Source: Gammaproteobacteria bacterium (lineage in GTDB: Bacteria; Pseudomonadota; Gammaproteobacteria; CAIRSR01). Taken from it: DNA of 32,225 nt. The stretch spans positions 1 through 32,225 of the forward strand of contig CAUYTW010000188.1 in NCBI GenBank assembly GCA_963575715.1, given 5' to 3'. Positions 8,590-32,167 of the stretch are shown here, one piece after another (within the stretch, counting starts at the first letter, position 1; each line of letters opens with the position of its first letter). The position numbers were made by a program, and so were the translations under genes. Below the pieces are notes generated by a model. That model was not told the DNA's origin. It did not search any database and saw only the letters and a list, made by a program, of their open reading frames with translations.

Positions 8590-10101
8590 TTAATGCCGTG
8601 GAGGCAACATTTTTCCTTCAACCACAGGATGGGCGTGAGCATGAGCAGCGCCATGGTTGGCGGAATTCGTGGCTGCGGTAATTGCGGAAGCAGTAGCAGC
8701 ACGTTCGCTGGCGGCAGGGATAGTAACAGTAGGATCCGTGGTAGTCGGAATAGCAGCAGGATTCTCTATTCCACCATTTCCGTTTCCGTTTCCATTTTCA
8801 TTACCGTAACCATTATCATTTTCATAGCTACCAAATTTCATGCCTGGTGATTCGGCAATAACTACACCCCGCTCAGTGGCACGCTGGCGAAGCAGCGCAT
8901 ACATTTTTTCCTTAAGCATTTGTCTTTCTTGAAGAGAGATCGCTTGCTTCATGGAACGGCGAAACTCTTTTCTTTCGGCGGGAGTCAGAAGTGCTCGTGC
9001 CGAAATTTTTCGATCCGGCTTGACAACCATCTGTTGGGAGGTTGCCTGCGTGGAAGAGGTTGCGTTGGTTTTTGAGGCACCATTAGTTTGCGCCGTCCTC
9101 TGAGATACACCATGAGATGACGAGGATGTCGCGTTGGTTTGCGAGGCTACCTGAGCGGTTGGGGTAACGACCGGGCTTACCGCTAACTGGGATGAGGTGG
9201 CATTGGTTTGCGCCGTCCCCTGAGATACGCCATGGGATGATGATGAAGTGGCGTTAGTTTGTGAAGCTACCTGAGCGGTTGGAGTAACAACCGGGTTTAC
9301 CGCTAACTGGGATGAGGTGGCATTGGTTTGCGCCGTCCCCTGAGATACGCCATGGGATGATGATGAAGTGGCGTTAGTTTGTGAAGCTACCTGAGCGGTT
9401 GGAGTAACAACCGGGTTTACCGCTAACTGGGATGAGGTGGCATTGGTTTGCGCCGTCCCCTGAGATACGCCATGGGATGATGATGAAGTGGCGTTAGTTT
9501 GTGAAGCTACCTGAGCGGTTGGAGTAACAACCGGGTTTACCGCTAACTGGGATGAGGTGGCATTGGTTTGCGCCGTCCCCTGAGATACGCCATGGGATGA
9601 TGATGAAGTGGCGTTAGTTTGTGAAGCTACCTGAGCGGTTGGAGTAACAACCGGGTTTACCGCTAACTGGGATGAGGTGGCATTGGTTTGCGCCGTCCCC
9701 TGAGATACGCCATGGGATGATGATGAAGTGGCGTTAGTTTGTGAAGCTACCTGAGCGGTTGGAGTAACAACCGGGTTTACCGCTAACTGGGATGAGGTGG
9801 CATTGGTTTGCGCCGTCCCCTGAGATACGCCATGGGATGATGATGAAGTGGCGTTAGTTTGTGAAGCTACTTGAGCGGTTGGGGTAACAACCGGGCTTAC
9901 CGCTAACTGGGATGAGGTGGCATTGGTTTGTGCCGTCCCCTGAGATACGCCATGGGATGATGATGAAGTGGCGTTAGTTTGTACCGCACCTTGGGATACA
10001 GAATTAGCGGATACGTTTTGCGTAGCTACCGCAGATAAGTTGAAACTGAAGATTCCAATCGTAAAAGCAATTAATAGGGAATTAAATTTTTTATCAATCA
10101 T
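8590..10101 (-). CDS. Secreted Ser/Thr/Asn/Gln-rich tandem-repeat protein
   Basis: A 503-residue protein of unrecognised function. A Sec-type signal peptide (residues 1-27, cleavage plausible after AVA) is followed by seven copies of a 40-residue repeat (start TNATSSSSHGVSQGTAQ) and a partial eighth. Next comes a charged helical module, about 360-420 (LTPAERKEFRRSMKQA and LLRQRATERGV), which resembles a motif of uncertain role in many small secreted proteobacterial proteins. The tail is rich in Asn/Gly, then Ala and His (HGAAHAHAHP). The repeat region has no cysteines and very low complexity, as expected for a surface or periplasmic spacer. The ATG is preceded by GGAG at a suitable distance, inside the structured element at 10102-10255. 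Repeat copies are almost identical in DNA, so the true number may differ. Confidence 0.8.
   Translation of the reverse strand: MIDKKFNSLLIAFTIGIFSFNLSAVATQNVSANSVSQGAVQTNATSSSSHGVSQGTAQTNATSSQLAVSPVVTPTAQVASQTNATSSSSHGVSQGTAQTNATSSQLAVNPVVTPTAQVASQTNATSSSSHGVSQGTAQTNATSSQLAVNPVVTPTAQVASQTNATSSSSHGVSQGTAQTNATSSQLAVNPVVTPTAQVASQTNATSSSSHGVSQGTAQTNATSSQLAVNPVVTPTAQVASQTNATSSSSHGVSQGTAQTNATSSQLAVNPVVTPTAQVASQTNATSSSSHGVSQGTAQTNATSSQLAVSPVVTPTAQVASQTNATSSSSHGVSQRTAQTNGASKTNATSSTQATSQQMVVKPDRKISARALLTPAERKEFRRSMKQAISLQERQMLKEKMYALLRQRATERGVVIAESPGMKFGSYENDNGYGNENGNGNGNGGIENPAAIPTTTDPTVTIPAASERAATASAITAATNSANHGAAHAHAHPVVEGKMLPPRH
9110..9990. repeat. Tandem array of a 120-bp coding repeat
   Basis: The 120-base unit recurs seven times with a partial eighth, in frame with the secreted protein. 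From about 9181 to 9870 the successive units are identical base for base. The outermost units carry a few substitutions (for example Ser instead of Asn in the AVNPVV block). Such identity in the middle and divergence at the edges points to recent slippage or unequal recombination. Confidence 0.97.
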
Positions 10102-10255
10102 TCAGAGTCTCCGAGAAACCTCGCCCTAAATTTAGGGCGGTATAGAAAAGGAGACGGTTTTTCAACCGTCCAAAATGCCGGACTTTTCCGGCGGTCAGCC
10201 CGTAAGCGGCCCAAGTGACGCACACCTTACTCGGTGTGGCTCCCATCGCCAAAGT
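10102..10255 (-). promoter_or_regulatory. Structured multi-hairpin leader, copy 1 (before repeat protein)
   Basis: Read on the minus strand, five stem-loops occur in a row: CACACC/GGTGTG, a GCC/GGC stem, GCCGGA/TCCGGC, GACGGTT/AACCGTC and CGCCCTAAA/TTTAGGGCG. A final small hairpin GTTTC-TCG-GAGAC contains the Shine-Dalgarno GGAG, seven bases before the ATG. A second copy with the same order of hairpins, but different stem sequences, precedes petA. It may be a cis-acting RNA, or the end of an IS200/IS605-type element that now serves as a leader. The structure is seen; the role is inference. Confidence 0.6.
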
Positions 10256-10322
10256 TGTGATTGACCCGCAACCATATACTAATAAAAATTAGATTTTTCA
10301 ATGTTGTCCTACAGGGAAACGG

Positions 10323-10500
10323 ACAGGCGATGGTCGATGTTCAACCAATAATTAGAATGCCTGTTTTATTAATCCGTGAGCATACCCAATTAGGTATACT
10401 TATTATATCCATTTTGGGTTATTCTTACCTTTTAATACAAATAGTTATTATTAACTTTATTTTGTAATGGTTTTGGTTAAATAAACCTATACCATTTTTC
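10323..10500. repeat. Diverged direct repeat, left copy
   Basis: Shares with 10803-10976 the blocks ATAATTAGAATGCCTGT, TTTTGGGTTATTCTTACC plus TTTTAATACAAATA, and GTAATGGTTTTGGTTAAATAAA (GTAATTGTTTTGGTTGAATAAA in the other copy). The two copies flank a 300-base segment of unrelated sequence. The hairpin that is nearly perfect in the right copy is decayed here. Confidence 0.8.
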
Positions 10501-10802
10501 TGGACAGGTGTGTCACTTCGAAGCGCGTCATGGATGGTAAGCAACCGCGATGATGTAAGTCATTGCGAAGCGTAGCGAAGCAGGGCAGTCGTCGGCAGAT
10601 TTTGGTGATTGTCCGCCCCGTCGGAGGGTGCTATGGTTAGAGTGGAGTTAGGGTATGTAGTTCTGTCAAGAAGACCTGGAAAAACAGGTAAAACCCGCTG
10701 GGCAGTGTCGACGATTAAGTCGTTACGGGCGGAAGGGTCACGAACGTTATACGCGTGGCAGACGATAGCCACACAAGTGGTGTCGGTTGCGATAGCACTA
10801 AA
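10501..10802. other. Non-coding or relic segment between direct repeats
   Basis: About 300 bases between the two direct repeats. A 69-codon open frame (10609-10818, +) has no recognisable similarity, ribosome-binding site or signal and crosses into the right repeat, so it is probably not a gene. The segment contains GGATGGTAAGC and GTCGGCAGATTTTGGT, both of which recur in altered form at 24748-24870, suggesting a relic of an old dispersed element. Confidence 0.4.
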
Positions 10803-10976
10803 ACAGGCGTATGGCTGATGTAAGACCGATAATTAGAATGCCTGTCATATCCAATCAGGCATACTAATTATATCTATTTTGGGTTATTCTTACCTTTTAA
10901 TACAAATAATTACTATTAAATGTAATTGTTTTCAATGTAATTGTTTTGGTTGAATAAATCTGTATCAATTTTTTTA
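10803..10976. repeat. Diverged direct repeat, right copy, with hairpin, upstream of nifJ
   Basis: The second copy of the 10323 repeat. It contains a strong stem at about 10831-10869: AATTAGAATGCCTG pairing with CAGGCATACTAATT, one mismatch. An AT-rich stretch follows. The copy ends about 110 bases before the nifJ start, so a nifJ promoter may lie within or just after it. Bases 10977-11087 are AT-rich with nothing else recognised. Confidence 0.75.
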
Positions 10977-24707: not shown

Positions 24708-25316
24708 AAAAATCTTGACTGTTTCGATACTCATCGAAGCTTACTTTGGATGGTAAGCGACTTAGCCGCGAGTTAAACTATTACATAGCGTCAAATCGAA
24801 ACTGACTTAATTATTTTTCAATTTCGATAGCGGAGTAAGGCGGTCGGCGGCAGATTTTAGTTCTCCGCACGATGCAGATAGATTTGCGTTTCGTAGGGTG
24901 TCGCAATAAAATGAGAAATGGTAATCGACGGCATCCGTCAATCACCCATCGACCTTTCGGGATCGAAAGTGCTTGTGGGGTAACTTATAATAGTAACTAA
25001 TTGATTATAATCAATAAAATGTTACTTCACACTCATGGTGATGCTCCTCAAGTTCTCTGTCCTGTCGCAGTTCGTAAAAAAAACGGAAACGGTCAGTGCG
25101 TTCGGTATAAAAAGCCTTTACAACATTGACGAAGAGGATCCACGAATTTCGTTCGGTTCTTAGTTTAATGCATTCAAAACCGGACGCTTACTCAAGACAG
25201 CGATTCATCCTTCACAATTTTTAACGATTGAGGGGATTTTTTCACAGAGGATTTATAAAATAAAGTCAAGAACACCGCGACCCTACGGGATCGAAGTGTT
25301 TCCACGCCGAGGATTT
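24708..25316. other. Repeat-rich intergenic region before rplM
   Basis: About 600 bases with no gene recognised. It contains TTTCGAT-ACTC-ATCGAA (24721-24738, possible end of the carboxylase transcript). Blocks GGATGGTAAGC (24748) and GTCGGCGGCAGATTTTAG (about 24844) are shared with 10528-10605. Stem-loop repeat copies lie at 24946, 25200 and 25276. A perfect palindrome TTGATTATAATCAA (25001-25014) is enclosed by AGTAAC and GTTACT. The rplM promoter must lie here but is not clear by eye. Confidence 0.55.
25200..25316 (+). repeat. Two tandem stem-loop repeat copies leading into rplM
   Basis: Both copies end in GAGGATTTAT: the first at 25247-25256 (followed by AAAATAAAG), the second at 25309-25318. 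The second includes the GAGG ribosome-binding site and runs into the rplM start codon. Each copy starts with a hairpin-forming block (ATCCTTCACAAT...ATTGAGGGG; GCGACCCTACGGGATCG). The second aligns closely with the minus-strand copy at 28922-28963 through GTTTCCACGC. Confidence 0.6.
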
Positions 25317-25745
25317 ATGAAAACTTTTAACGCCAAACCGGAAAATGTTCAGCATCAATGGTATATAGTGGACGCTGCCGGTAAAACCCTTGGTCGTTTA
25401 GCCAGCGAAATTGCCAGACGTTTGCGGGGTAAACACAAGCCAGAATATACTCCGCATGTAGACACGGGTGATTATATTATTGTGATTAATGCCGCCAGAG
25501 TTAAGGTTACTGGCAATAAGGTCGATGACAAATTGTATTATCGACATACTGGATACCCAGGTGGTCTGAAAGTGACCAATTTCGCCAAACTTATCCAAAA
25601 AGATCCTGGTGAAATTATTGAACACGCCGTACGTGGCATGTTACCCAAAAATCCATTGGGACGAGTAATGTTTCGCAAGCTTAAGGTTTATGCTGGAGCA
25701 GATCATCTACATATTGCCCAACAACCTCAGCTACTTGATATTTAA
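25317..25745 (+). CDS. rplM: 50S ribosomal protein L13
   Basis: A 142-residue L13, an early-assembly protein of the large ribosomal subunit. Typical sequence: [53 protein letters not shown] and [14 protein letters not shown]. The start is the ATG seven codons inside the longest frame, preceded by GAGG in a proper position; the upstream residues belong to a repeat. rpsI follows 51 bases later, as in nearly all bacteria. Confidence 0.98.
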
Positions 25746-31156: not shown

Positions 31157-31765
31157 CTAGTTATTTTTTGATGATGAATCAGTGAGATCTTGGCCAACTA
31201 TAATGCGGGTTTTATCCAAATAATAATACGGTGGCACCTCTAGGTTAAGAAGCGCGGGTACACCTTCGAAAACTCTTCCCGCTAAATCGAAGCGCGAGCC
31301 GTGACAAGGACAAAAAAATCCTCCCTTCCAGATTGGCCCAAGATCGAGGGGAGCAAGATCAGGACGAAAAATGGGCGCGCATCCCAAATGCGTACAAACC
31401 CCAATTACTACTAAATACTCAGGGTTGATGGAACGATGCTGGTTGGCAGCATACGTCGGCTGTGTTGATGATTCTGATTTCGGATCGCGCAGTACATCAT
31501 TCAGTGTGCCGAGGTTGTCAATGATTTCCTTGGTTCGACGCAAAATCCAGACTGGCTTGCCACGCCACTCCACAGTCATCATCTGACCTGGTTCGAGTTT
31601 ACTAATGTCCACTTCGATTGGAGCACCGACGGCCTGATCTTTGGCACTCGGTTGCATGGATGATATAAATGGTACCAATGCTGCAACCGTTCCTACTCCA
31701 CCCATCACCGACGTGGCCATGAGGAAGAAACGACGCCGGTCCTTGTTGACATCATTTACGTTCAT
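31157..31765 (-). CDS. petA: Ubiquinol-cytochrome c reductase, Rieske iron-sulfur subunit
   Basis: A 202-residue Rieske protein of the cytochrome bc1 complex, moving electrons from quinol to cytochrome c1 at the inner membrane. The N-terminus has a twin-arginine type signal/anchor (RRRFF, then a hydrophobic helix to about 36). The [2Fe-2S] ligands are Cys124 and His126 in CTHLGC and Cys152/His155 in CPCHGS, with the disulfide cysteines Cys129 and Cys154. The start was set at the ATG directly after the structured element; the frame continues upstream but without protein-like sequence. petB and petC are not downstream: sspB follows after 80 bases, so cytochrome b and c1 must be encoded elsewhere or be lost. 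Confidence 0.96.
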   Translation of the reverse strand: MNVNDVNKDRRRFFLMATSVMGGVGTVAALVPFISSMQPSAKDQAVGAPIEVDISKLEPGQMMTVEWRGKPVWILRRTKEIIDNLGTLNDVLRDPKSESSTQPTYAANQHRSINPEYLVVIGVCTHLGCAPIFRPDLAPLDLGPIWKGGFFCPCHGSRFDLAGRVFEGVPALLNLEVPPYYYLDKTRIIVGQDLTDSSSKNN

Positions 31766-31915
31766 CAGTGTCTCCGAGAAACCTCGCCCTTCAGGGCAGG
31801 AAAGGAGACGGTTTTCTCCGTCTCTTGTGGATAGCAAACTTTTAAAGTTGCCGGTCTTTCCCGGCTGTCTTACGGGCCTAGTGACGCACATCTTGCGGTG
31901 TGGCTCCCCTCGCTC
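31766..31915 (-). promoter_or_regulatory. Structured multi-hairpin leader, copy 2 (before petA)
   Basis: Same order as copy 1, read on the minus strand: CACACC/GATGTG, GCCGG/CCGGC, an extra AACTTT/AAAGTT stem, GAGACGG/CCGTCTC and GCCCT/AGGGC. The terminal GTTTC-TCG-GAGAC hairpin with GGAG lies six bases before the petA ATG. The linear stretches GGGCGAGGTTTCTCGGAGAC and GTGCGTCACT are shared with the copy at 10102, whereas several stems differ by paired changes. Confidence 0.6.
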
Positions 31916-32167
31916 GCTTATTCGTGGATTTTTGTACCCTTTTGGGTCCATCCTTGGCAAGCAACACTGGCTTCGACCCCGTATGCCGCAGTGTCCGGAA
32001 CTGAGGAAGCATTCCGAAGTGCCTATTACACCGCTTGCGCGGATTCCACAATAAAGTCTCGTCGCAAAGCGACCGAGCTGGTCAACTCCAAGACTTGCTT
32101 TCACAAACCTTGCCCTTTACGGCGGAGTAGTTGACTATATTTTTAAGCACTGTTTTACAATAATAAT
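31916..32167. other. Upstream region of petA, no gene recognised
   Basis: About 250 bases with open frames on both strands but no recognisable protein. A hairpin-like pair GTCAACTCC and GGAGTAGTTGAC lies at 32081-32133. Because the adjacent 31766-31915 element resembles an insertion-sequence end, this stretch may be a decayed transposase C-terminus, but no motif confirms it. Confidence 0.3.

Follow-up and report, generated by a model that had tools for sequence, protein, structure and literature searches.

The two hairpin-rich elements that end at start codons in the window (i.e. the whole stretch of 32,225 nucleotides that was analysed) are most probably derivatives of HEARO/ISC elements devoid of iscB, for which an ATGA target makes start codons suitable landing sites, and whose right end would restore the ribosome-binding site of the gene concerned. 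As judged from the sequences of the elements and of their intact relatives, both represent the 3' portion of an IS200/IS605-type element of the HEARO/IscB kind from which iscB has been lost.

The elements of the window

Both copies are on the minus strand, reading from 10265 to 10102 (copy 1) and from 31921 to 31766 (copy 2). The gap between the end of the element and the ATG is 1 nt for copy 1 (10102) and 0 nt for copy 2 (31766), the ATGs being located at 10101 and 31765, respectively. Along the minus strand, the two copies share, in this order, the blocks GGCGA..GGGAGCCACACC, GTGCGTCACT, GCCGG..CCGGC, AAAACCGTCTCCTTT and GGGCGAGGTTTCTCGGAGACnCTG, and each encloses a GGAG, 7 nt from the ATG in copy 1 (10112-10109) and 6 nt in copy 2 (31775-31772). 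The preliminary description of this DNA, which reported two multi-hairpin elements with common blocks, ending at ATGs and enclosing the GGAG, is confirmed in these respects. The region of copy 1 is predicted to fold more stably than its own shuffled sequences (z -4.6), and the same is true of the full element of copy 2 (z -3.6); in neither case was any shuffle equally stable. The conserved structure that had been proposed stands as far as this stability and the covariation of other stems (see below) are concerned. The stem pair cited in its support, GACGGTT/AACCGTC versus GAGACGG/CCGTCTC, does not: copies 1 and 2 have the same 3' strand (AAAACCGTCTCC) and differ only in the 5' partner and the register, because they belong to different subfamilies.

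Copy 1 (10102..10265, minus strand; match to model R1 at 10103-10257, E 4.6e-32) appears to be an internally deleted HEARO/IscB-derived element. A left-end remnant of 8 nt, GTCAATCA (10265-10258), is joined to the 3' tail of the omegaRNA and the right end; no Rfam match to the HEARO body, most of which has presumably been lost by internal deletion, was found in this copy. Its GGAG (10109..10112, minus strand) is Shine-Dalgarno (SD)-like and lies within the stem of the right end, on its 3' side. The gene that starts beside it (8590..10101, minus strand) codes, according to its translation, for a secreted-looking protein with tandem repeats, whose near-identical units measure about 120 bp; a Pfam search of the protein found no domain. 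A match of copy 1 to PsrR1 in Rfam (E 7) was dismissed as due to chance, and a search of plasmids with copy 1 gave no match.

Just upstream of copy 1, positions 10501-10830 hold a member of a second repeat family, for which there was no match in Rfam. It is 76-86% identical over 240-280 nt to sequences at three other loci (L114, L193 and L194), with shorter matches at about ten further loci, and is flanked by AT-rich direct repeats (10380-10500 and 10846-10973; 82% identical, 128 nt).

Copy 2 is a full element without iscB (31766..32135, minus strand), with left end GTCAAC at 32135 and right end ACTG at 31766, the latter directly before the ATGA of petA. The sequence of the elements thus extends farther in the 5' direction than had been described, the petA element reaching 32135. 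In a relaxed Rfam search, the HEARO RNA (RF02033), i.e. the scaffold of the IscB omegaRNA, was matched directly upstream of copy 2, into which it runs (31898..32135, minus strand, read from 32135 to 31898; E 5.7e-14), with a score of 69.4 bits, below the Rfam gathering cut-off of 83; at gathering thresholds, only a tRNA was found in the whole window. A GGAG (31772..31775, minus strand) precedes the ATG of petA by 6 nt. The petA gene (31157..31765, minus strand; Rieske iron-sulphur subunit according to Pfam) adjoins copy 2 with its ATGA start, which is regarded as genuine because the TAT-signal domain is recognised from residue 4 onwards.

Before rplM, positions 24937-25316 are occupied by two elements from other subfamilies, nested or in tandem. 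The first, which is the third element of the window (24937..25254, plus strand), has left end GTCAATCACCC, a right end ..CACAGAGGATTT that is followed by ATAAA, not ATGA, and a weak HEARO match at 24937-25143. The other is a miniature of 52 nt (25265..25316, plus strand), made up of a left end and a right end, GTCAAGAAC..CGCCGAGGATTT; it ends directly before the ATGA of rplM at 25317 (ribosomal protein L13 by Pfam; 25317..25745, plus strand).

Parentage and spread of the family

The whole genome gave 129 HEARO matches, 63 of them above the gathering score, and nine pieces of iscB. On one contig (C351), HEARO, iscB and a Y1 tnpA stand together, with iscB intact and just 3' of HEARO; the domains detected (PF14239, PF01844 and PF01797) are those of a RuvC (RRXRR) and HNH nuclease and a neighbouring Y1 transposase. 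This is an autonomous relative from a subfamily different from those of copies 1 and 2, which are themselves without an iscB/HNH ORF. Its iscB is the sole intact one of this genome, and its belonging to another subfamily counts against our main reading. The Y1 tnpA genes on contig C342 were considered as mobilisers and rejected, as they are plain IS200 genes without the right-end motif.

The architecture of the parent elements can be read in two sister genomes. In G001, which is from the same genus, HEARO and the omegaRNA tail GGGGAGCGAGCC..GCGCGTAAGCGC run straight into an intact iscB (contig C187), and in G002 iscB passes without interruption into AAAACCGTCTCCTTTC..TTTCTCGGAGGCACTG, with ATGATG immediately after. 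In these genomes, one half of the unit, the 5' one, is contiguous with the start of iscB, and the 3' half follows iscB, ending GGAGGCACTG next to ATGA. Since iscB lies between both halves, the unit consists of the omegaRNA tail and the right end, with iscB gone. The nearest named relatives of IscB are from Thiotrichaceae and Candidatus Marithrix.

The genome and its relatives were searched with a covariance model built from the 3' unit, as the preliminary description had suggested. At least 150 copies of the 3' unit were found in this genome (the matches listed favour well-preserved copies), 93 in G001, 92 in G002 and a single, weak match in G003, so that the "two copies" described before were a large undercount. 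Copy number, which varies widely among these genomes although they are of one family, tracks iscB, which is intact in G001 and G002 and missing from G003. A pattern for the right end gave 194 matches in the genome and 0 in the reversed control; the exact right end had no match in the viral contigs searched.

Across 43 copies, compensated changes amounted to 39 cells in which both sides had changed and the pair was kept, compared with 11.3 +/- 2.6 in shuffles and 5-16 with slid partners; it should be noted that this test leans towards structure, because the structure had been derived by RNAalifold from the very alignment that was tested. In the terminal stem GTCTCC/GGAGAC, covariation was seen at one pair, with both sides changed in 10 cells.

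The right ends differ between subfamilies, as read at L084 (positions 19500-21800 of contig C304 of this genome) and other loci. The sister subfamily A ends ..CTCGCGGGCATTTG before GTGA, subfamily D ends ..GCGCCGAATTTGG before ATGA, and the C351 type ends before ATAAA; the type of right end and the target co-vary, different right ends having different targets.

Target motif, start codons and ribosome-binding sites

Among the matches listed, ATGA was present within -1 to +4 nt of the end of the model in 126 of 148 copies, and GTGA in 9. These motifs are not forced by the search, because the model stops short of the target letters. In the loci read from G001 and G002, ATGA abuts the element in 29 cases out of 29.

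A large part of these ATGA are start codons. Among the matches listed, 80 of 141 copies (57%) sit on an ATG that opens an ORF of 100 codons or more, as against 15.4% of 7,331 background ATGA sites (binomial p 3e-29), the background DNA having been sampled around the elements; in the same DNA, gene starts, taken as the first possible starts, account for 2.0% of all ATGA and for 11.5% of non-coding ATGA. ORF length is here a proxy for genes, except for 20 randomly chosen downstream proteins that were tested, 18 of which had Pfam matches. The families include biotin carboxylase (from residue 1), TadA-like deaminase, thioredoxin and nitroreductase; rpmH (contig C66) is also among the docked genes, identified from its own sequence alone. 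The genes downstream of copies 1 and 2, a repeat protein and petA, had been described as unrelated, and this lack of a functional relationship extends to the wider set. Docking varies with the target: one of 16 copies of the GTGA-target subfamily A is at a start codon, compared with 25 of 51 copies of the ATGA-target subfamilies. In the distant genus Duodenibacillus, an iscB element ends at the ATGA opening a lipoprotein-like frame (one case, examined by eye). Enrichment at start codons could partly reflect survival, insertions inside genes being purged.

The accB-accC locus offers a comparison with relatives. Here, the accB stop is followed by the native spacer ..TTCTTCGCATCG (..CATCG), the element and then ATGATAAAAA. 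In G001, G002 and G003, accB, a short spacer and accC follow one another without an element, the junction in G003 reading ..GACATCG and then ATGATA, and no target duplication was seen with respect to these three relatives. By this comparison, the accB-accC spacer contains one clean insertion. At rplM, the nested elements present here are missing at the start in the loci read from G001 and G002, and HEARO was not found at petA of G001, the only relative from the same genus for which there was a match. The petA leader of G001 (L245) reads GGAGACCCACTGATGA / TGCTGGAGACCCACTGATGAACG, which is right-end-like and lacks the hairpin of the right end; it may be a remnant or a coincidence.

An SD-like tetramer is present 3-11 nt before the start in 65 of the 80 start-docked copies (81%), in 31 of the 56 other copies (55%) and at 11.7% of background ATGA. 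The right end commonly closes as GGAGAC-N3/4, which places GGAG 6-7 nt from the ATG; it may therefore substitute for the displaced ribosome-binding site, so that the gene would still be translated. The SD appears dispensable for docking itself, since subfamily D has 10 of its 17 copies at start codons without a clear SD. The left flanks contain a possible displaced native SD in 10 of 27 start-docked copies and 8 of 35 others, again with a background of 11.7%; the test is weak and no more than suggestive of displaced native sites.

Interpretation and comparison with known systems

We propose that these are non-autonomous IscB/HEARO elements (ISC, IS200/IS605 superfamily) that have retained the omegaRNA-bearing left end and the right end with its hairpin, but have lost iscB. 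Clean insertion would take place on the 5' side of ATGA, and IscB is expected to have this very motif next to its target. As ATGA includes ATG, any gene that begins with ATGA offers a suitable target. The element would come to lie downstream of the 5' untranslated region, directly before the start codon and in the orientation of the gene, where its right end would serve as a working ribosome-binding site. Host promoters may drive transcription of the omegaRNA, for which the host leader would be the guide, and mobilisation may occur in trans through a Y1 transposase. We tentatively consider a further step, namely a lineage adapted to start codons, in which the motif holds the start codon and the right end gives the ribosome-binding site, so that insertion would be near-silent, the host promoter would make an omegaRNA guided by the host leader, and old copies would persist only in the form of their right end, by then the ribosome-binding site of the gene.

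The same distribution might arise, and this is a plausible if not the expected case, from neutral landing at any ATGA followed by purifying selection, starts being a frequent surviving ATGA and GGAG an accident of the right-end stem. The target is indeed merely ATGA, about half of the copies of ATGA-target subfamilies are away from starts, the SD-like tetramers are common also in copies that are not at starts, and subfamily D docks without one. However, the share of copies at starts is far above that of starts among non-coding ATGA; in GGAGAC-type copies GGAG is kept in 54 of 69 at starts vs 17 of 35 elsewhere (Fisher p 0.003), and HEARO-less remnants favour starts over fuller copies (30/41 vs 50/95, p 0.036), although the age of the subfamilies may confound both results.

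A regulatory role is less easily reconciled with the data. If the right-end hairpin masked the ribosome-binding site, it might have been exapted for translational control of the downstream genes, and GGAG is in fact the 3' strand of the partly covarying terminal stem, with a mean predicted unpaired probability of 0.17 at docked genes vs 0.26 for the SDs of other genes. The difference is nevertheless small and non-specific, copies away from genes giving 0.15; with pairing only slightly above that of other genes, regulation by masking is not favoured. Moreover, the genes are functionally unrelated, the relatives read lack the element and a domain for binding a ligand or factor was not detected, all of which makes such control unlikely. 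It is scarcely credible that the family is a host regulatory RNA conserved by descent: structure and covariation would fit, but sister species differ in the presence of the element, a clean insertion is seen at accC, right ends are numerous in a single genome, and the genes are unrelated. The undescribed cis-regulatory RNA envisaged in the preliminary description is unsupported: the relatives read lack the element at accC and rplM, as does G001 at petA, and its presence follows iscB and ATGA targets and not gene function. Its other suggestion, an IS200/IS605-type, omegaRNA-like end adopted as a leader, came close, with IscB/HEARO and not TnpB as the parent. An omegaRNA of TnpB, or IS605 right end, is very improbable, in spite of a superficial likeness in hairpins, fixed target and multi-copy state, because the RNA matched is HEARO and intact elements enclose iscB and Y1 tnpA. 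The copies read have no tnpB beside them, where the parent elements hold iscB instead, and copies neither lie beside tnpB genes nor are placed at random with respect to starts, so that the preliminary description is not refuted on these grounds, which it had named itself.

HEARO RNAs reportedly occur adjacent to ATGA or GTGA. The present family resembles HEARO (RF02033)/ISC elements in its left-end scaffold, in the iscB of intact relatives, in insertion at ATGA/GTGA and in the existence of ORF-less copies. It differs in its numerous iscB-less copies, over half of which border the start codon of an intact host gene, in the SD-like GGAG of the right end and in a further hairpin domain on the 3' side, which the Rfam model does not cover. 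DtIsrB cleaves targets with a TTGA or ATGA motif 3' of the guide match (PMC9581776), and the ATGA found here corresponds in side and letters to the NTGA motif of IsrB/IscB OMEGA systems; unlike those systems, the copies encode no nuclease. With non-autonomous IS200/IS605 derivatives they share terminal hairpins, a fixed tetranucleotide target, clean insertion and a Y1 transposase in the genome, but their guide RNA scaffold is of the IscB type, and no tnpA is inside the copies read. No report of start-codon docking by such elements was found in the limited literature collection searched.

The family can be described as an expanded, iscB-less branch of HEARO/ISC, whose ATGA target would place copies on starts, with a right end that may serve as a ribosome-binding site. 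Leaders of this kind can pass for riboregulators, which calls for caution. They are a natural example of start codons coinciding with the motif that a Cas9-ancestor system targets, and they suggest how IscB-type elements may reach hundreds of copies while sparing genes, including rplM, rpmH, accC and petA, as well as a route by which transposon ends may become ribosome-binding sites.
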